33,806 nt of DNA from a virus. The DNA lies in IMG/VR virus record IMGVR_UViG_3300010354_000303, positions 1 through 33,806 of that record, one strand, 5' to 3'. Shown one piece after another: positions 5,042 through 29,371 of this stretch; within the stretch, counting starts at the first letter, position 1; each line of letters opens with the position of its first letter. A program made the translations under genes and the position numbers. The notes beneath the pieces were generated by a model. The model searched no databases. It was not told where the DNA came from and saw only the letters and a list, made by a program, of their open reading frames with translations.

Positions 5042-5466
5042 CAGGACTCCTTCATCACCGGGCCGCCGGTGATCCACGCGTCACAGGTGCGCTTCGCTGC
5101 ACAGGCGAAGTCGAACGCCGCGCAGAACCCGATCTGCCCAGCGATCATCACTTCCTCCGCGTCCGCGCGGATCCCGCCCTCGATGCACTTGAGCATCTTC
5201 GGCGTGATGATGAACTTGGCGCAGTTGCCGCACAGCATCTTCTTGATGCCCGCCTCGTCGGCGTTCATGCGCTCGGCCTTCTGCATCCAGTAGTCGCCCG
5301 GCTCCTGCGGATTGGCGGGGCCGTAGTTGGCGCTGTCGATGGCCTTCTGCCGGTTGGCGAGGTTCATCTCGACGCTCTGCGTCGCCGCAGGACACGCCTC
5401 GCCTTCCTCAGCAACGGCGCCCGCCTTCATGGCGCGCATCGCAGTGTAGTAGTCCTGCTCAGCCAT
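5041..5466 (-). CDS. Cysteine-rich, HiPIP-like metal/cluster-binding candidate (141 aa)
   Basis: The C-terminal half carries a regular Cys pattern: C79-x2-C82-x11-C94-x20-C115-x6-C122-x5-C128, with a GFC at 113-115 and an RTCDAW at the end; C25 lies apart. Four of these (CxxC, C, GxC) follow the spacing logic of high-potential iron-sulfur proteins, where the last ligand is in a GWC-like motif. The two further Cys depart from that. A zinc or disulfide-bonded knuckle is the alternative. Similar Cys-rich proteins sit beside structural genes in other environmental phages, from memory. Start and stop both overlap the neighbouring genes as TGATG. Confidence 0.6.
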   Translation of the reverse strand: MAEQDYYTAMRAMKAGAVAEEGEACPAATQSVEMNLANRQKAIDSANYGPANPQEPGDYWMQKAERMNADEAGIKKMLCGNCAKFIITPKMLKCIEGGIRADAEEVMIAGQIGFCAAFDFACAAKRTCDAWITGGPVMKES

Positions 5467-6059
5467 CAGCTCGCCCGTCCGGCGTCGATCTCAACGATCA
5501 GCTCGTTGCCCGCCGTGGCGTTGTCGGTGGAGAGCAGAACGGACAGCGAGTTGCCCGCGGCGGCCGTCGTCACCTCGAACTCGAAGACGATGACGATGCT
5601 CTCGCCGGGGACGAACGTCTGGTTGGGGACGTTCGCGGTGACGTTGTTCTCGATGTAGGTGGCGCCGCCCAGCACGTCGAGGGGGCGAGGCTTGCCGACG
5701 CCCTTCACCAGGCCAGCGATGCTGGACACGTTGCCGCTGGTGTCCTTGCGCTTCACGTCCATGTTGAAGCGGCCAGCCGCACCCGCAGGCGCAGCGGCGA
5801 CCTGCTGCCACCGCACCTTGGCGCGGATCTGGCCAGCGAAGCTCACGTTGTACGCGCAGCGGAGGCTGTACTGGAACGCGAACTTGACGCCCGGAGCGGT
5901 CGTGTCCACAGAGGCGATGGTCGTCGTGGTCAGCGTCGGCGCCTTGTTCAGCGCGGTGCCGGGGATCAGCACGCCATCCGTGTAGACCGTCGCCGCGACC
6001 GCCGTCGAAGGCGGAGCCGCGTACCAGCCACCGCTGAACATGTTCGCTACGTCAGCCAT
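5466..6059 (-). CDS. Virion structural protein (197 aa)
   Basis: A 197-aa beta-rich protein with no recognised family name. It has repeated Thr/Val/Ala strands, YSLRCAYNVSFAGQIRAKVRW in the middle and FVPGESIVIVFEFEV near the C terminus, which look like the beta-sandwich of a small virion or baseplate-like domain. There is no membrane segment. Its ATG lies directly behind a strong inverted repeat that contains its AGAGAGG ribosome site (see 6065-6130), so its translation may be separately controlled. The TGA overlaps the next ATG. Confidence 0.6.
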   Translation of the reverse strand: MADVANMFSGGWYAAPPSTAVAATVYTDGVLIPGTALNKAPTLTTTTIASVDTTAPGVKFAFQYSLRCAYNVSFAGQIRAKVRWQQVAAAPAGAAGRFNMDVKRKDTSGNVSSIAGLVKGVGKPRPLDVLGGATYIENNVTANVPNQTFVPGESIVIVFEFEVTTAAAGNSLSVLLSTDNATAGNELIVEIDAGRAS

Positions 6060-6064
6060 GCGGA

Positions 6065-6130
6065 CCTCTCTCGCGCGTAGGCTATCACATCGCGAGAGAG
6101 GACGCTATCTACACGAAGAGACTACGCGCG
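6065..6130 (-). promoter_or_regulatory. RBS-sequestering hairpin with competing alternative stem
   Basis: On the transcribed strand an 11-bp perfect inverted repeat pairs 6091-6101 with 6065-6075 around a 15-nt loop. The 3' arm contains the AGAGAGG ribosome site of the gene starting at 6059. A second, mutually exclusive 9-bp perfect pairing joins 6122-6130 with 6072-6080. It includes the UAG stop of the upstream gene and would leave AGAGAGG (6071-6065) unpaired. The repeats are read directly from sequence; the switching role is inference. Confidence 0.6.
6079..6087 (-). promoter_or_regulatory. Extended -10-like promoter motif (TGATAGCCT)
   Basis: The loop of the hairpin holds TGATAGCCT on the minus strand, fitting TGnTAnnnT. 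It ends exactly 19 nt before the start codon at 6059. The same motif and spacing recur at 20927 and 30547. A transcript starting six or seven bases downstream would begin at the ribosome site. No clear -35 element is present. Confidence 0.4.
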
Positions 6131-6553
6131 CCAGTGCAAACGAAGGTTGCCGTTTGCCGTGCCCGCGTTAGTCTTGATCACGACATAGACCGTCCCGCGA
6201 GTCTCGACCGCAAGCTGCTGGTAGTGGTAGTCCAGGTCGATGCACGCGATGGCGGAGCCGTCAGAAGCAGTCGTGAACCCGAACTGCACGGACGCAGTCT
6301 GCTCTGCGGTCAGCGGGATGTCGCCCGCCGCGTCACGCGCCAGGAAGAACGTCACGCTAGAAGCGCCCGCGGCGATGGTGTCCATCTCCACCGCGAGGTG
6401 CTGGAAGTGCGCGAAGTCGGGCACCGACGCCGTGCGGGGCGCGTTGGTGGTGTCGGCGGTCAGCGTGAAGACCTGGTAGCTGGTGGTCAGCGCAGCCTGG
6501 TGCTTGTAGCTGATGCCTGCGTGGTTGAAGCCGCCGTAGCGTGCGATGGACAT
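6122..6553 (-). CDS. Small virion structural protein (143 aa)
   Basis: Not recognised by family. The 143-aa product is beta-rich (YQVFTLTADTTNAP, SSVTFFLARDAAGDIPLT, GTVYVVIKTNAGTANGNLRLHW) and resembles small single-domain phage surface or adaptor proteins. There is no membrane span or catalytic motif. GGAGG lies four bases before its ATG, within a nine-base gap behind the giant gene. Its last codons and stop take part in the alternative stem described at 6065-6130. Confidence 0.6.
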   Translation of the reverse strand: MSIARYGGFNHAGISYKHQAALTTSYQVFTLTADTTNAPRTASVPDFAHFQHLAVEMDTIAAGASSVTFFLARDAAGDIPLTAEQTASVQFGFTTASDGSAIACIDLDYHYQQLAVETRGTVYVVIKTNAGTANGNLRLHWRA

Positions 6554-15500: not shown

Positions 15501-16162
15501 ACACCACGCTCTCGGTTCGCGCGCTCGATCTCTTCGTACGTGCGGCCCTTCGCACGAGCGGCGTAGATGGCATCGAGGTCAACGCCCTGCGCGGACGCCA
15601 GTTCTTGGAGCCGCTGCGGCGACATGCCGAGGTCTTCCGCCGCAAGAGCCAGCCTCGACTGCTTAGTAAGCAGCGCACCCGCATCGTAGACCTTGCGGTA
15701 GTCGACGACCTCGGCGACATCAGGCGGCAGGACGAACGGAGCAGGCGCAGCGGCCGCGGTCGTCGCCGCCTCCGCCGCGCGGCGGGCTTCACGCTCACCC
15801 TTCTCACGCGACTTCCGGAGCTGAGCGGCCAAGTCGGCGCCGTACTCGCGCTCAACTTCCTTCTCCGACATCGTGCGCTGAGACTTCTTGCCGCCATCTT
15901 CGATGGTCAGCGTCCACGCACCGTCCTTGTAGGACCCGCTGAACTTCGGCTGCGAACGCCGCTCCCGCTCACGATCTTCATCTTTTTGTTCGACAGCTTG
16001 GGCGGCACGGGTTACCGTAGGGGCAGGCCGGGGCTGCGTAGTAGAAGGCACGGCGGCAGTCGGCGCCTTCGGCGGAGTCGCGGCGGGCGCCGCAGGGACA
16101 ATCCCCGCCGCCTTCTCGAACGCTGCCTGCTGCGCCTTCCATTCTGCGTACGACCGCGCCAT
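6563..16162 (-). CDS. Giant multidomain virion protein with two HExxH metallopeptidase-like domains (3,199 aa)
   Basis: The frame opens at 16225, but ATG 16162 has GGAG seven bases upstream and starts MARSYAEWKAQQ, so it is preferred. Visible layout: a charged N terminus with Ala/Pro linkers; a helical region to about 900; Ala/Pro-linked small domains at about 1000-1600, including a phage 'LPRDLAGATPGYNIG' type domain at 1083-1172; HELLH at 1703-1707 with a later SEFWAV; HEAAH at 1917-1921 with AKAFENYALEG and a later VFDRMFE. The HExxH-plus-downstream-Glu layout matches metallopeptidase domains of phage 'polyvalent' proteins. The C-terminal third has IPRYFMMN near 2546 and LFPFWAFQKN near 2784, words I associate with giant ejected virion proteins. 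I infer that it is packaged and injected with DNA. I found no convincing RNA-polymerase motifs of the N4 virion type. Confidence 0.8.
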   Translation of the reverse strand: MARSYAEWKAQQAAFEKAAGIVPAAPAATPPKAPTAAVPSTTQPRPAPTVTRAAQAVEQKDEDRERERRSQPKFSGSYKDGAWTLTIEDGGKKSQRTMSEKEVEREYGADLAAQLRKSREKGEREARRAAEAATTAAAAPAPFVLPPDVAEVVDYRKVYDAGALLTKQSRLALAAEDLGMSPQRLQELASAQGVDLDAIYAARAKGRTYEEIERANRERGVVGFLPATEREARFRSVAEAADKARRGQADDKPIELKASRAGAQTIMGTSEELPEVTKPGEHGYTLASMLVDSLLKEDRPSELYDMYGRRMATGATQQYVEDRVKDLIRSTNLRADTPDFDERKRALYRRAFNEVLAYKTIGMWTPVVTALDFEAVEGSRDPTLWEAATTPNIEIIGINNKNQAIYRMESPMGMALRAIDIPQSALTGVVSGMGAARGIQTGANLMEFAIDATEGQSLWTRAPLVGAATVASILSPDMFSAASTATKLVRGVAQSRKLAKLAPKAIELTETIAEARKAGRYDDARKAEIELRTMFPAVADDLDRKDARAAAAMGIVKPDSDQLNDDLAALVGSQVPTEALTAASRPYLHSSERRQVLSMKQAGKMTPVTTYDLLFNTEKSLRTINEAKARYIQNPPRTLDAFAQQHLRGAVRDVFAGLNEEKRAATTSAQIDQLSDTIAARANQALNDPAKFKTEVRAIIKATLPGDDLKEVRDAYYKNSSRILDSVANIRGKNVADLQASQVALFDRMLKSAESNNESRAYAALLLRDQLAQDAKIIVQPSGVFDQVAVKAPSGEPIRLTDGGHVFLFSIRRAAPNMPFKEAYSAVAKIDAIVKAAAERFNMDPADLYYQLFPEVRQGTAEDVQRFVRRQISGSSPSVRTAAVRLPFGLSIGADAALLANLPVPPGYTAQNIVDVADAKKTIAAAIEGKIPDLKRTTIEPGTNRTVESVAVIVGDVRIVLDRTPNIDEFNVVITLGRGSNTKVETLLAVKGQDAAFKKAQTIAGGLIKDRVAAGGPAIVDAPVKGQVAARATPSSAVPSAPVPQTAPTAPAAPAVVPGPAAAPTAPPAAATPAAPAAARPTKLPRDLAGATPGYNIGKNAFSPKFESDIDKALFIIASSKKKSAAHDKYMAFLRAATGLNDTEIKAQAATVLSQLKETLRGATPGAVDIPTIYKPAAAAAPAPRPRVPAAPAAPAAPAPAAAVPAAAPAPSQLPVLADTVTARKEQLREYLRANPGIKLQPLFTQFDLKPDDVRQIHREVKAERTAAPAAAPASSPTVPTATPTPVPSTRAVPTRQEQIADFERQIEAAQQAERNAWEEVKRTDAQRTRGRMNPFTSKAKQQELDASNEAADAAFREARTNKLALEDALKEFRRTTSPEAPAPITAPVAPVAEPVVAPPVAAAPQKFGTVALQREGGIGYNQAAELVARVQSGALTEAQAVEEARRIGGRAAAPAPTTAGPATPAPIVATAEAQAEAAKIVEAPAPAKRPRASRGKKAEVAPAEVAPAVPEEPTTLLPSIERDARRADITRKETARQTEIMLGELYGRSVAAEWEEIPEQFRVNAGRRLTKAQEALAAGKINQEDFNKLVRNVAADLNDQRDIRRARAETAEPRRGADVVRSRLLAAKADGIISAEGADLAEWFVRQNPRIADNLAIIIGAPKYVGSKLGEPIGRAVAGAYEPITDIVALITNRGSELTATHELLHRTERMLPSALQDAVRKEYTKRLTKAIEKATETERPFLAAFLAPSKENLKLRTEAFNPGNLDPAKFYQFANPSEFWAVNASKIVSGRYAAFNKGLVARAKQWVTEFAQKIKSVFGLQSDAPLVRGLDAVIKGDGTFVSEDMLSQGRVFKSVEPQAPVPSGITAAAEGQIEDPSILKQVTPAGQVKGAVETLSDGKTIFYLFENADASTILHEAAHILRGSVLDNTDMGYITDWIRRQGVNVTHQYGEFVGDPAEVEKAEELFAKAFENYALEGRPPPAAPYLERAFQVLRNALANLYSAANDPVIGVPMDPEVRKVFDRMFEGMSQKANPTLMERLRRDILGAPEPGVEGVIVRLAREAKRKGIPNASLEDLAKQFDDAKAAGKPANQVHLSFPVKVGGKKEWTALDLTQAQNAAEEAYAIRKGNRAGIRLDLTGRGKGTAASMITEEKAVEALRSLTTPVEGETGLPRALRATARVIVSAFFGGDVLSDEGRTALRYAPPEFRAVMDRTERTVAQSIGDTIAMVNGAVDTGDDTELIRFLTGSERVVRRSGRPVLSAGYNYSGAVLRMIDGMFETLSDVQKAALEKMADAINSADPDVAISRFGFGTDGTTFKVSDAMRQAVQDAAGAAIAKTLNATAQQGKVDFGSTLAGALRNAVQASPTPRPSHELKLMETLLYVTKRTQRNGRLFSGTDADATRILLGDIAKIYDDESSRRVAVLIGGFGGADRAKRMLANINLGISPEAERNFRSWIVGGSVDPKYLPEIQRVINRYGFNPEFVADPVLGVDFYIPSMARDRMAQALARANFRDPTALSARVSDAFNAVYRYMKLRMTRGSLITIPRYFMMNTADHAAALGTVVGFGVAATSTTRLIGQNVVTMTGLGTGMELARIMSGGRIKPDVVEKVRRGLQAGGDRAAWMVGQLFSTGKYRIEVNPIMEGSSGTFRAGGNVYSFRDIRNTAVEEGIFSSFDTSQLAALITKEGRLSMANANLIGQGTITFGKSDSTVTARLRNFFGELSESASDMAEAWSERERLGAMVTLMEAGYDPRTAARLVIDALYDYSQSMSQGDRSWLVGVLFPFWAFQKNANAQVFNLIFSPAGAYRAMVIKRAKERFADLFSEVLYNEVGSEYGLDVKSMPPELQDTYYSIVTAFYDAYNGDPPEDAKRALRLLMTGRAVGVEGGKYFEVAHRLMTQRGAGGFADLQKFGEYISLRPEKSARMSSFRDRTGVAVPFPRTEAVRTVMGLLGDNYTYMEIYWPESAFEAGMKYHTQVMAGMLLLGANGIDLVAPVGSLTEGGIEGVSLANVLEPVVSLERSPILGPILPAISAGSMEPVAPPKRVAKALVSTADAVMELHPAVAKLLSDSYGTTFVRVPAEKDPFLVDVDGKLPQLSPEEVERIRRLNDEVPDIGVRRDERIYMLGGVMSTALYNSPLGEINTLLLRWEQEPLERANIRGDILRVARAAGGFDVSVVSASKTMRSEEPTKLKETKKF

Positions 16163-16266
16163 CGTGCTTCTCCGTAGGCGCTGCGTATCACGTAAACGCA
16201 CGAACGCCCGCCCGCATCGTAGCATATTGCCACGGCGGATGGGCGTCTTCGCGCTGGCGGGGCCGT
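16163..16266 (-). promoter_or_regulatory. Gap before the giant gene: -10-like motif inside an inverted repeat
   Basis: This 104-bp gap holds CAATATGCT (minus strand, 16221-16229), similar to the motif in other gaps. It sits in the 19-nt loop of an imperfect inverted repeat, 16204-16215 with 16235-16246, where 10 of 12 positions pair by Watson-Crick and one more by G-U. The ribosome site GGAG is at 16170-16173, outside the repeat. A promoter or attenuator for the giant gene is likely. The motif lies 58 nt before the start, farther than in the other gaps. Confidence 0.4.
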
Positions 16267-28081: not shown

Positions 28082-29140
28082 TTAGACCGCGCCGCCGGAG
28101 ACGCAGCCCTGCGCCGGGGTCTTCGTGCAGATGAGGTTGCCCTGCATCGAGAAGATGGCGGTGACCACGTCCTGGTCGCCAACACGCTCGGTGAACGGCG
28201 TGATGGACGGGGCCTCCATGAGGGGCATCTCGATGAAGTCCGTGTTCAGGATGTAGGTGACGCCGTTGAGGGCGTTCGCCGTGGAGAACCCACCGCCGGT
28301 CGGGTTCAGGTCGATGGACGAGTAGACCTTGGCGACGCCCAGCTCAAGGCCGAGGGTGTTCGTCTTCTCGGTCTTGTCCTCGACGAGCGCGACGCGGACG
28401 AGGGACAGGCGGCTGTCCTCGAAGTTGGTGTAGGTGCCGTCGTCCATGATGACGAGGTCCGGCCCCTTGCCCATGCCACCCGCGTAGTGCGCGCACTGGC
28501 GGTAGGTCTTGCGGAGCGTCGGGAGGCCGTCGGTGGCCCAGGAGGTGATCGCGCCGTACTGGTTGAAGTGGTAGTACGACGAGGACTTCTGGACGCTCTG
28601 GACGGTCTGGTTCTGCGTCGCCGGGGTGGCGAAGTCGAGCAGGCCGTTCGTCACGCCGGTGCCCGAGCCAGCGGAGAAGTCGCCGTTGATGCTCAGGAAG
28701 CCCGCGAGGTCGGCGGTCTGGAAGACCAGGCCACGGGACACGCCGGTGAGGAGGAAGGAGTTGAGGTCGGCCTTCGCGCCCTCAAGCGTGGTCTGCGGGT
28801 ACTCCTCGATGAGACGGATCACCGCGAGCTTGCCGCTGTTGAAGAGCAGCTCCTTCTTCGGGATGTTGATCGCAGCCACGATGCGGTGCGGCTCGACCTG
28901 GAAGCGCTTGGTCTGCTGACGGCGCGTCATGTTGAGAAGCTCGTCGCCGACGAACACGCCAACGCCGCGGGCGGGGGCGCCACCGGCGAAGGAACGCTCG
29001 ATCAGGCTGCCGCCCTCAGAGGGCATGCGAGCCTTGCTCATGAGCGCGTCGAGCAGCTCATTGGAGCGGATGAACGAGTTGATGAGCGGCCCACGGAGGT
29101 CCGCGAACGTGGTGTTGAGGATTTCGGTAGAGATAGCCAT
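28082..29140 (-). CDS. Major capsid protein, HK97-fold candidate (352 aa)
   Basis: ATG 29140 (MAISTEILNTTF) is chosen over the ATG four codons upstream because GGAG lies six bases before it. The 352-aa protein has the expected length. The N-terminal half shows features of HK97-type capsids: an N-terminal helix region (FADLRGPLINSFIRSNELLDAL), a Gly-rich segment like the E-loop (FAGGAPARGVGVFVGDELL), a helical spine-like region (RIVAAINIPKKELLFNSGKLAVIRLI) and an FLLTG turn. The C-terminal half is beta-rich (VYSSIDLNPTGGG, FTERVGDQDVVTAIFSMQGN). Its own long leader and place at the head of the structural genes agree. Assignment rests on pattern and gene order, not on a search. Confidence 0.75.
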   Translation of the reverse strand: MAISTEILNTTFADLRGPLINSFIRSNELLDALMSKARMPSEGGSLIERSFAGGAPARGVGVFVGDELLNMTRRQQTKRFQVEPHRIVAAINIPKKELLFNSGKLAVIRLIEEYPQTTLEGAKADLNSFLLTGVSRGLVFQTADLAGFLSINGDFSAGSGTGVTNGLLDFATPATQNQTVQSVQKSSSYYHFNQYGAITSWATDGLPTLRKTYRQCAHYAGGMGKGPDLVIMDDGTYTNFEDSRLSLVRVALVEDKTEKTNTLGLELGVAKVYSSIDLNPTGGGFSTANALNGVTYILNTDFIEMPLMEAPSITPFTERVGDQDVVTAIFSMQGNLICTKTPAQGCVSGGAV

Positions 29141-29371
29141 CTTGTGCTCCATAGCCGGGGGCAGACGCGAAAAGCGACTCCGACCGGCTGGGTCGAAGGA
29201 ACGGTTGAGGTTCGTGCTTCGCCTGCCCGCTCATGGACTACGGACCCTTACGGGCTACCCGGAGCAACCTTGAGGGGTGCTTGAAGAAAGTAGCACGACC
29301 AGTTGCAAGCGCGCAAGGCCGTGTTACATAAAAAACGCCGCCGCGAGTGGAGGGTCCCCGCACGCCTATGA
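29141..29371 (-). promoter_or_regulatory. Structured 5' leader and promoter region of the capsid gene
   Basis: This is the largest gene-free stretch (231 bp). On the minus strand a weak promoter can be drawn: TTGCGC (29316-29311), 18 nt, TACTTT (29292-29287) preceded by TGC. Downstream, an 8-bp stem with one G-U (29191-29198 with 29178-29185, 5-nt loop) sits inside an outer stem that pairs 29223-29228 with 29159-29164 and continues with five more pairs after a 2-nt bulge. The outer stem ends eight bases before the GGAG site. A six-T run at 29335-29330 follows GC-rich sequence but has no good stem. No ORF is seen here. Confidence 0.45.

Follow-up and report, generated by a model that had tools for sequence, protein, structure and literature searches.

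A predicted promoter-in-hairpin translation gate before a 197-aa gene in a clade of uncultured tailed phages

We analyzed a 33.8-kb virus fragment from IMG/VR (hereafter the window, meaning this whole stretch of DNA), which its terminase and major head protein matches identify as a tailed phage. On the minus strand, a 197-aa gene is preceded by a hairpin that encloses a promoter motif, and comparison with related contigs makes it probable that this arrangement acts as a translation gate. Messenger RNA arriving from upstream, from a 143-aa gene and a giant gene, would carry both arms and fold into an 11-bp hairpin, and because this hairpin would bury the Shine-Dalgarno (SD) sequence, no 197-aa protein would be made from that message. 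Polymerase starting at the extended -10 in the loop would produce a message that begins ~13 nt before the AUG and lacks the 5′ arm, so that the ribosome site would be free. Production of the 197-aa protein would thus be tied to the gene's own promoter and insulated from read-through. That read-through RNA is made is an inference, as are the strength of the repression and the time at which it would act. The elements considered are as follows.

16182-16191, minus strand: GTGATACGCA, a weak copy of the promoter motif by motif comparison, 29 nt before the ATG at 16162 of the giant gene
6122-6553, minus strand: the 143-aa upstream gene, which stops 62 nt short of the 197-aa start
6122-6130, minus strand: 5′ arm of the competing 9-bp stem, with 6072-6080 as its partner; unconserved
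6102-6107, minus strand: TAGCGT, conserved, in the -35 position; by sequence comparison the spacer to the -10 is exactly 17 nt
6091-6101, minus strand: 5′ arm of the SD-hiding hairpin, CCTCTCTCGCG, perfect over 11 bp; the arms covary in six contigs, and this one sits within the -35/-10 spacer
6079-6089, minus strand: putative loop promoter TGTGATAGCCT, an extended -10 TGATAnnnT (hexamer TAGCCT at 6079-6084); TGATAnnnT is invariant in seven contigs
6065-6075, minus strand: 3′ arm CGCGAGAGAGG with the SD GAGAGAGG (6065-6072), assigned from pairing and p(unpaired)
6072, minus strand: predicted transcription start (+1), within the 3′ arm, placed from the -10 position; 13-nt leader GAGAGAGGTCCGC
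5466-6059, minus strand: the 197-aa gene behind the hairpin; predicted beta-sandwich in a low-confidence model, no PHROG or Pfam match

Two perfect stems can be drawn at this junction. In the first, 11 bp long, CCTCTCTCGCG (6101-6091) pairs with CGCGAGAGAGG (6075-6065) around a loop of ~15 nt, and the SD GAGAGAGG (6072-6065), 5 nt upstream of the ATG at 6059, is part of the 3′ arm; this stem is the window's sole perfect non-palindromic inverted repeat of at least 11 bp within 70 nt. In the second, 9 bp long, CGCGCGTAG (6130-6122), which contains the TAG stop of the 143-aa ORF, is perfectly complementary to CTACGCGCG (6080-6072). Since the stems share positions 6072-6075 they are mutually exclusive, and both are present just as the first-pass annotation of this DNA had described them. 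When the minus-strand region was folded the 11-bp stem dominated, with a probability of 0.9995 compared to ~1e-5 for the 9-bp stem, and p(unpaired) of the SD in the window was 0.000 in the read-through RNA versus 0.95 in the predicted short RNA. Taken as a whole, the 131-nt region had a fold energy that was only modestly unusual (z = -1.75). A few percent of the SDs in the clade are buried (p(unpaired) is < 0.007 for 5% of the SD-bearing genes in its GC-rich genomes), so that SD accessibility alone is little proof. The main evidence is instead the conservation of the 11-bp stem and the absence of such conservation for the 9-bp stem.

Protein searches recovered five relatives with the same junction (G001-G005, IMG/VR contigs of 67-76 kb), which together with the window form a hairpin set of six sequences, two of them nearly identical. 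An extra relative, G013, has the 197-aa gene; the 143-aa gene was not found in it. In all six hairpin contigs the SD lies inside the 3′ arm, within a helix of 10-14 bp whose 5′ partner is upstream of the -10. Across the six, p(unpaired) of the SD was 0.000-0.002 in read-through RNA and 0.25-0.99 in the predicted short RNA, depending on the relative, so that the site is not fully open in all of them. The arms themselves have been rewritten: CCTCTCTCGCG/CGCGAGAGAGG, GCGTTCTCTCGTGC/GCACGAGAGGGCGC, GCCCTCTTTCG/CGAAAGAGGGC, CCCTCTCCTG/CGGGAGAGGG and CCTCCCGCGTCGT/ACGGCGCGGGAGG. Read by hand and anchored on the GAGG/CCTC core, each of the first four inner pairs shows a compensatory change (T-A to C-G; C-G to T-A; T-A to G-C and C-G; C-G to T-A). 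Additional G-U pairs in G001, G004, and G005, together with a drifting loop length, fit with pairing at the RNA level. Because a MAFFT alignment slips the 3′ arms, we chose an arm-swap permutation over pair counting. By pairing energy, the native assignment of 5′ to 3′ arms was the best of 120 permutations in the six contigs and the best of 720 with G013, a seventh and weaker relative, included; none of 2000 shuffles of the 5′ arm reached the native pairing energy. These comparisons indicate that compensatory change has preserved the 11-bp stem in related phages, and the covariation in six contigs supports the earlier proposal that this stem hides the ribosome site.

A skeptical reading is that the promoter alone is functional, the hairpin having arisen by chance in GC-rich sequence and been kept by descent. 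Hidden SDs are fairly common in the clade genomes, and G013 keeps the promoter and the gene with a weaker and differently shaped hairpin, as this reading would allow. However, divergence of the arms has been accompanied by compensation, exchanging the arms worsens pairing overall, and the helix is seldom regained by shuffling: an equal helix over the SD arose in 1 of 300 trials when the 20-nt segment upstream of GTGATA was shuffled in the window, and in only 0-5 of 300 trials per genome when the same 5′ segment was shuffled in each of six genomes. We regard this reading as very improbable.

For the 9-bp stem, the first-pass annotation had proposed a coupling switch, in which this stem, with the upstream stop codon in its 5′ arm, exposes the ribosome site until a ribosome terminating on the 143-aa gene melts it. 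Its pairing in the window is perfect, and nascent RNAs that end at 6072-6068 do favor it (P 0.93-0.97, with 0.97 at 6072). It is nevertheless displaced upon completion of the 3′ arm and gone when 6065 is transcribed, its equilibrium probability is ~1e-5, and enforcing it gave -44.7 versus -51.6 kcal/mol, a penalty of 6.9 kcal/mol. When the stop-codon region of five relatives was compared with the loop and 3′ arm, the best helices were 5-7 bp, and no compensation was seen in any of the five. The pairing is therefore unique to the window, and its loss in relatives without compensation is the outcome that the annotation had named beforehand as refuting its switch. The search for compensatory changes in related phages thus separated the two stems, with covariation in six contigs for the 11-bp stem and none for the 9-bp stem. 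The 5′ arm of the 9-bp stem encodes the conserved C terminus ...HWRA-stop and is hence constrained as protein sequence. As the stem is brief, confined to nascent RNA, and unconserved, we consider a ribosome-driven switch extremely unlikely, and the stem is at most a transient folding intermediate.

Two further readings take the hairpin to serve a purpose other than hiding the SD. The arms are symmetrical about the -10, and a dimeric repressor bound to both could block the promoter, with RNA pairing as a by-product; palindromic operators likewise co-vary between relatives. Such a DNA operator seems unlikely to us, because the inter-arm distance drifts while the promoter spacing is fixed, the arms differ even in contigs whose 143-aa proteins are 92-95% identical, and the G-U pairs disturb the symmetry of the DNA yet leave RNA pairing intact. 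In addition, the SD falls in the 3′ arm every time, a placement for which an operator has no need. The hairpin also lies directly 3′ of a gene, and it could be a transcription terminator or mRNA-end stabilizer of the 143-aa gene that has merged with the next promoter; at two sites of the same promoter class (G003 69969 and G005 24179), a terminator-like hairpin does precede the promoter. Judged by the usual marks of an intrinsic terminator (GC stem, short loop, T-run), the hairpin is not one: the loop is ~15 nt, no T-run follows, and the terminator scan was negative. The constant SD in the 3′ arm would moreover be left unexplained, and we hold this reading to be very unlikely. The terminator scan found no U-run terminator between the genes, which counts in favor of the gate.

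The translation gate, which we prefer to these readings, depends on a promoter inside the hairpin. The -10, the TAGC at the -35 position, and the 17-nt spacing were invariant in 7/7 contigs. Transcription starting 7 nt after the -10 would place +1 in the 3′ arm (6072) and yield a leader of ~13 nt without the 5′ arm. The annotation had noted a promoter-like motif in the loop and suggested a short mRNA lacking the 5′ arm, as in the T4 lysozyme gene; the former is supported by the invariant -10 and spacing and by the occurrence of the motif genome-wide in the clade, and the position of the promoter supports the latter. In the nine contigs searched, GTGATAnnnT was found in 20 copies, 18 of which had an SD and an ORF (60 codons or longer) behind them, compared to 6 of 19 for three scrambled motifs combined (Fisher p = 0.0002). 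The usual distance from GTGATAnnnT to the start codon was 28-31 nt, as seen for the terminase, the giant virion gene, a 142-144 aa gene, and the 197-aa gene. The clade motif GTGATAnnnT / TGWTAGCAT was present in G000-G005, G013, and others, and a TGATAGCAT/TGTTAGCAT-like site upstream of the terminase was visible in the 13 contigs examined. We read GTGATAnnnT as a promoter motif of the clade; with so clear a motif, transcription units become readable from metagenomic contigs. At other promoters of the GTGATAnnnT class, the helix over the SD was at most 6 bp. Since these promoters lack an SD hairpin, the hairpin belongs to this junction and not to the promoter class.

Canonical TTGACA is absent from the loop promoter, and a plain sigma-70 scan gave no match, points that speak against the gate. 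Searches of eight contigs detected no sigma factors over the cut-off. A T7-type RNA polymerase was likewise not detected over the cut-off in eight contigs; the PF00940 control was equally silent, so that a phage RNA polymerase in the clade is possible. In G001 (L014 7521-7554), TGTGATAGCGT occurs twice, 23 nt apart, at the hairpin, possibly as tandem promoters. In another group of phage contigs (L246, L255, L265, L266, L280, L293, and L310), the TAGC-N17 -10 geometry recurs in CTAGCGCGGTTGGTTGCAATGTGATAAAGT; this sequence stands before an SD and an ORF whose product begins MAALAGR, is duplicated in some cases, and has no SD hairpin.

We also examined the genes around the junction. No nucleotide match for the first 25 kb of the window was found in 50,697 GenBank phage records, and an MCP alignment gave no match in genome_contigs. 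Neither the 143-aa nor the 197-aa gene had a match in PHROG or Pfam or a protein match in GenBank phages. The model of the 197-aa product had a pLDDT of 60, and a structure search with it returned weak beta-sandwich matches only; no endonuclease match was found for this product. ORFs of 143, 197, 141, and 134 aa lie on the minus strand downstream of the giant gene, which encodes 3199 aa from its likely true start, the ATG at 16162 and not 16225. The weak motif copy GTGATACGCA before this start is a plausible source of the read-through mRNA. In the window (16162-16250, minus strand) and at the corresponding position in G001-G003, a conserved hairpin-like element, GCCGTGGCAATATGCTACGATGCGGGCGG, also precedes the giant gene, together with the GTGATA motif.

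Nine relatives at a greater distance have a 143-aa homologue that terminates in TAATG or TGATG, its end overlapping or directly adjoining the next gene's start, and they carry neither the promoter nor the hairpin at this junction. The simplest reading of these junctions without a hairpin is that a gene was inserted and either brought the promoter-hairpin module along or had it built for its use; arrival together with that gene is probable from this comparison. Behind the hairpin of G005 stands a 132-aa homologue of the window's 134-aa ORF in place of the 197-aa gene. Tentatively, the promoter and the SD-hiding arms might form a portable insulator, which entered the virion operon with the inserted gene, shields that gene from the giant upstream message, and stays when the gene behind it differs; we regard this as possible but rather doubtful.

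The T4 lysozyme-type gate is a textbook form of control. For T4 gene e, repression of the longer transcripts amounts to about 100-fold while those from the late promoter are free, and soc, 49, and I-TevI are under the same type of control (PMC3014915). There the SD is in a helix on transcripts initiated upstream, and a promoter in or beside the helix gives rise to a translated mRNA without the 5′ strand (PMC3014915). The junction described here resembles gene e: the SD is predicted to be paired on upstream transcripts, and the promoter is placed such that its own transcript would lack the 5′ strand. The promoters differ, however: T4 uses a gp55-type late promoter, TATAAATA, which is not in the loop, where TGTGATAGCCT is found instead, an extended -10 with TAGC at the -35 position. 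Here the 5′ arm fills the promoter spacer, and the gene stands among the virion genes of an unrelated phage clade. The junction would thus work like gene e, yet it is not a T4-type late-promoter unit. The hairpins of homing-endonuclease genes in T4-like phages (I-TevI/II/III, segB, and mobE) are similar in that the module accompanies a gene inserted in a transcribed operon and prevents its expression from read-through mRNA (PMC2988022). In contrast to these, the 197-aa gene has no endonuclease match and a low-confidence beta-sandwich model, and its insertion is deduced from the distant relatives only. The seg43 gene of Aeromonas phage 25 also has a stable hairpin directly upstream of the ribosome-binding site, but with the SD just outside the stem, whereas here it is inside (PMC2988022). 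On the sequence evidence, the junction appears to be a further case of a known gate logic, with a different promoter, in an unrelated clade of uncultured phages. A gate with compensatory changes in such a clade suggests repeated invention of this control by phages, as a means of insulating genes that have been inserted into operons.

In a wider search, a DNA-pattern scan with N13 spacing found the promoter and a strong SD hairpin together in the known relatives only, with scores of 29-34; in the chance control, 74 matches of an N15-spaced pattern, the maximum score was 16. Further protein scans for additional members yielded no more hairpin bearers, and Rfam gave no family above the gathering threshold over the window.

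A separate observation concerns the major head protein gene (28082-29152), upstream of which we noticed a strongly conserved structured leader RNA of ~65 nt (29217-29286, minus strand). Its pattern, GCACCY...GGGUAGCC...GGUCC...RGGCAGGC, was represented by 59 distinct sequences from 80 loci (L115-L194), with double-sided changes at 7 of 12 predicted pairs and no Rfam match at E<=1. A strong match occurs once per genome, at the major head protein gene, and the leader RNA seems to begin directly behind a promoter-like TTGC-N17-TAnnnT.
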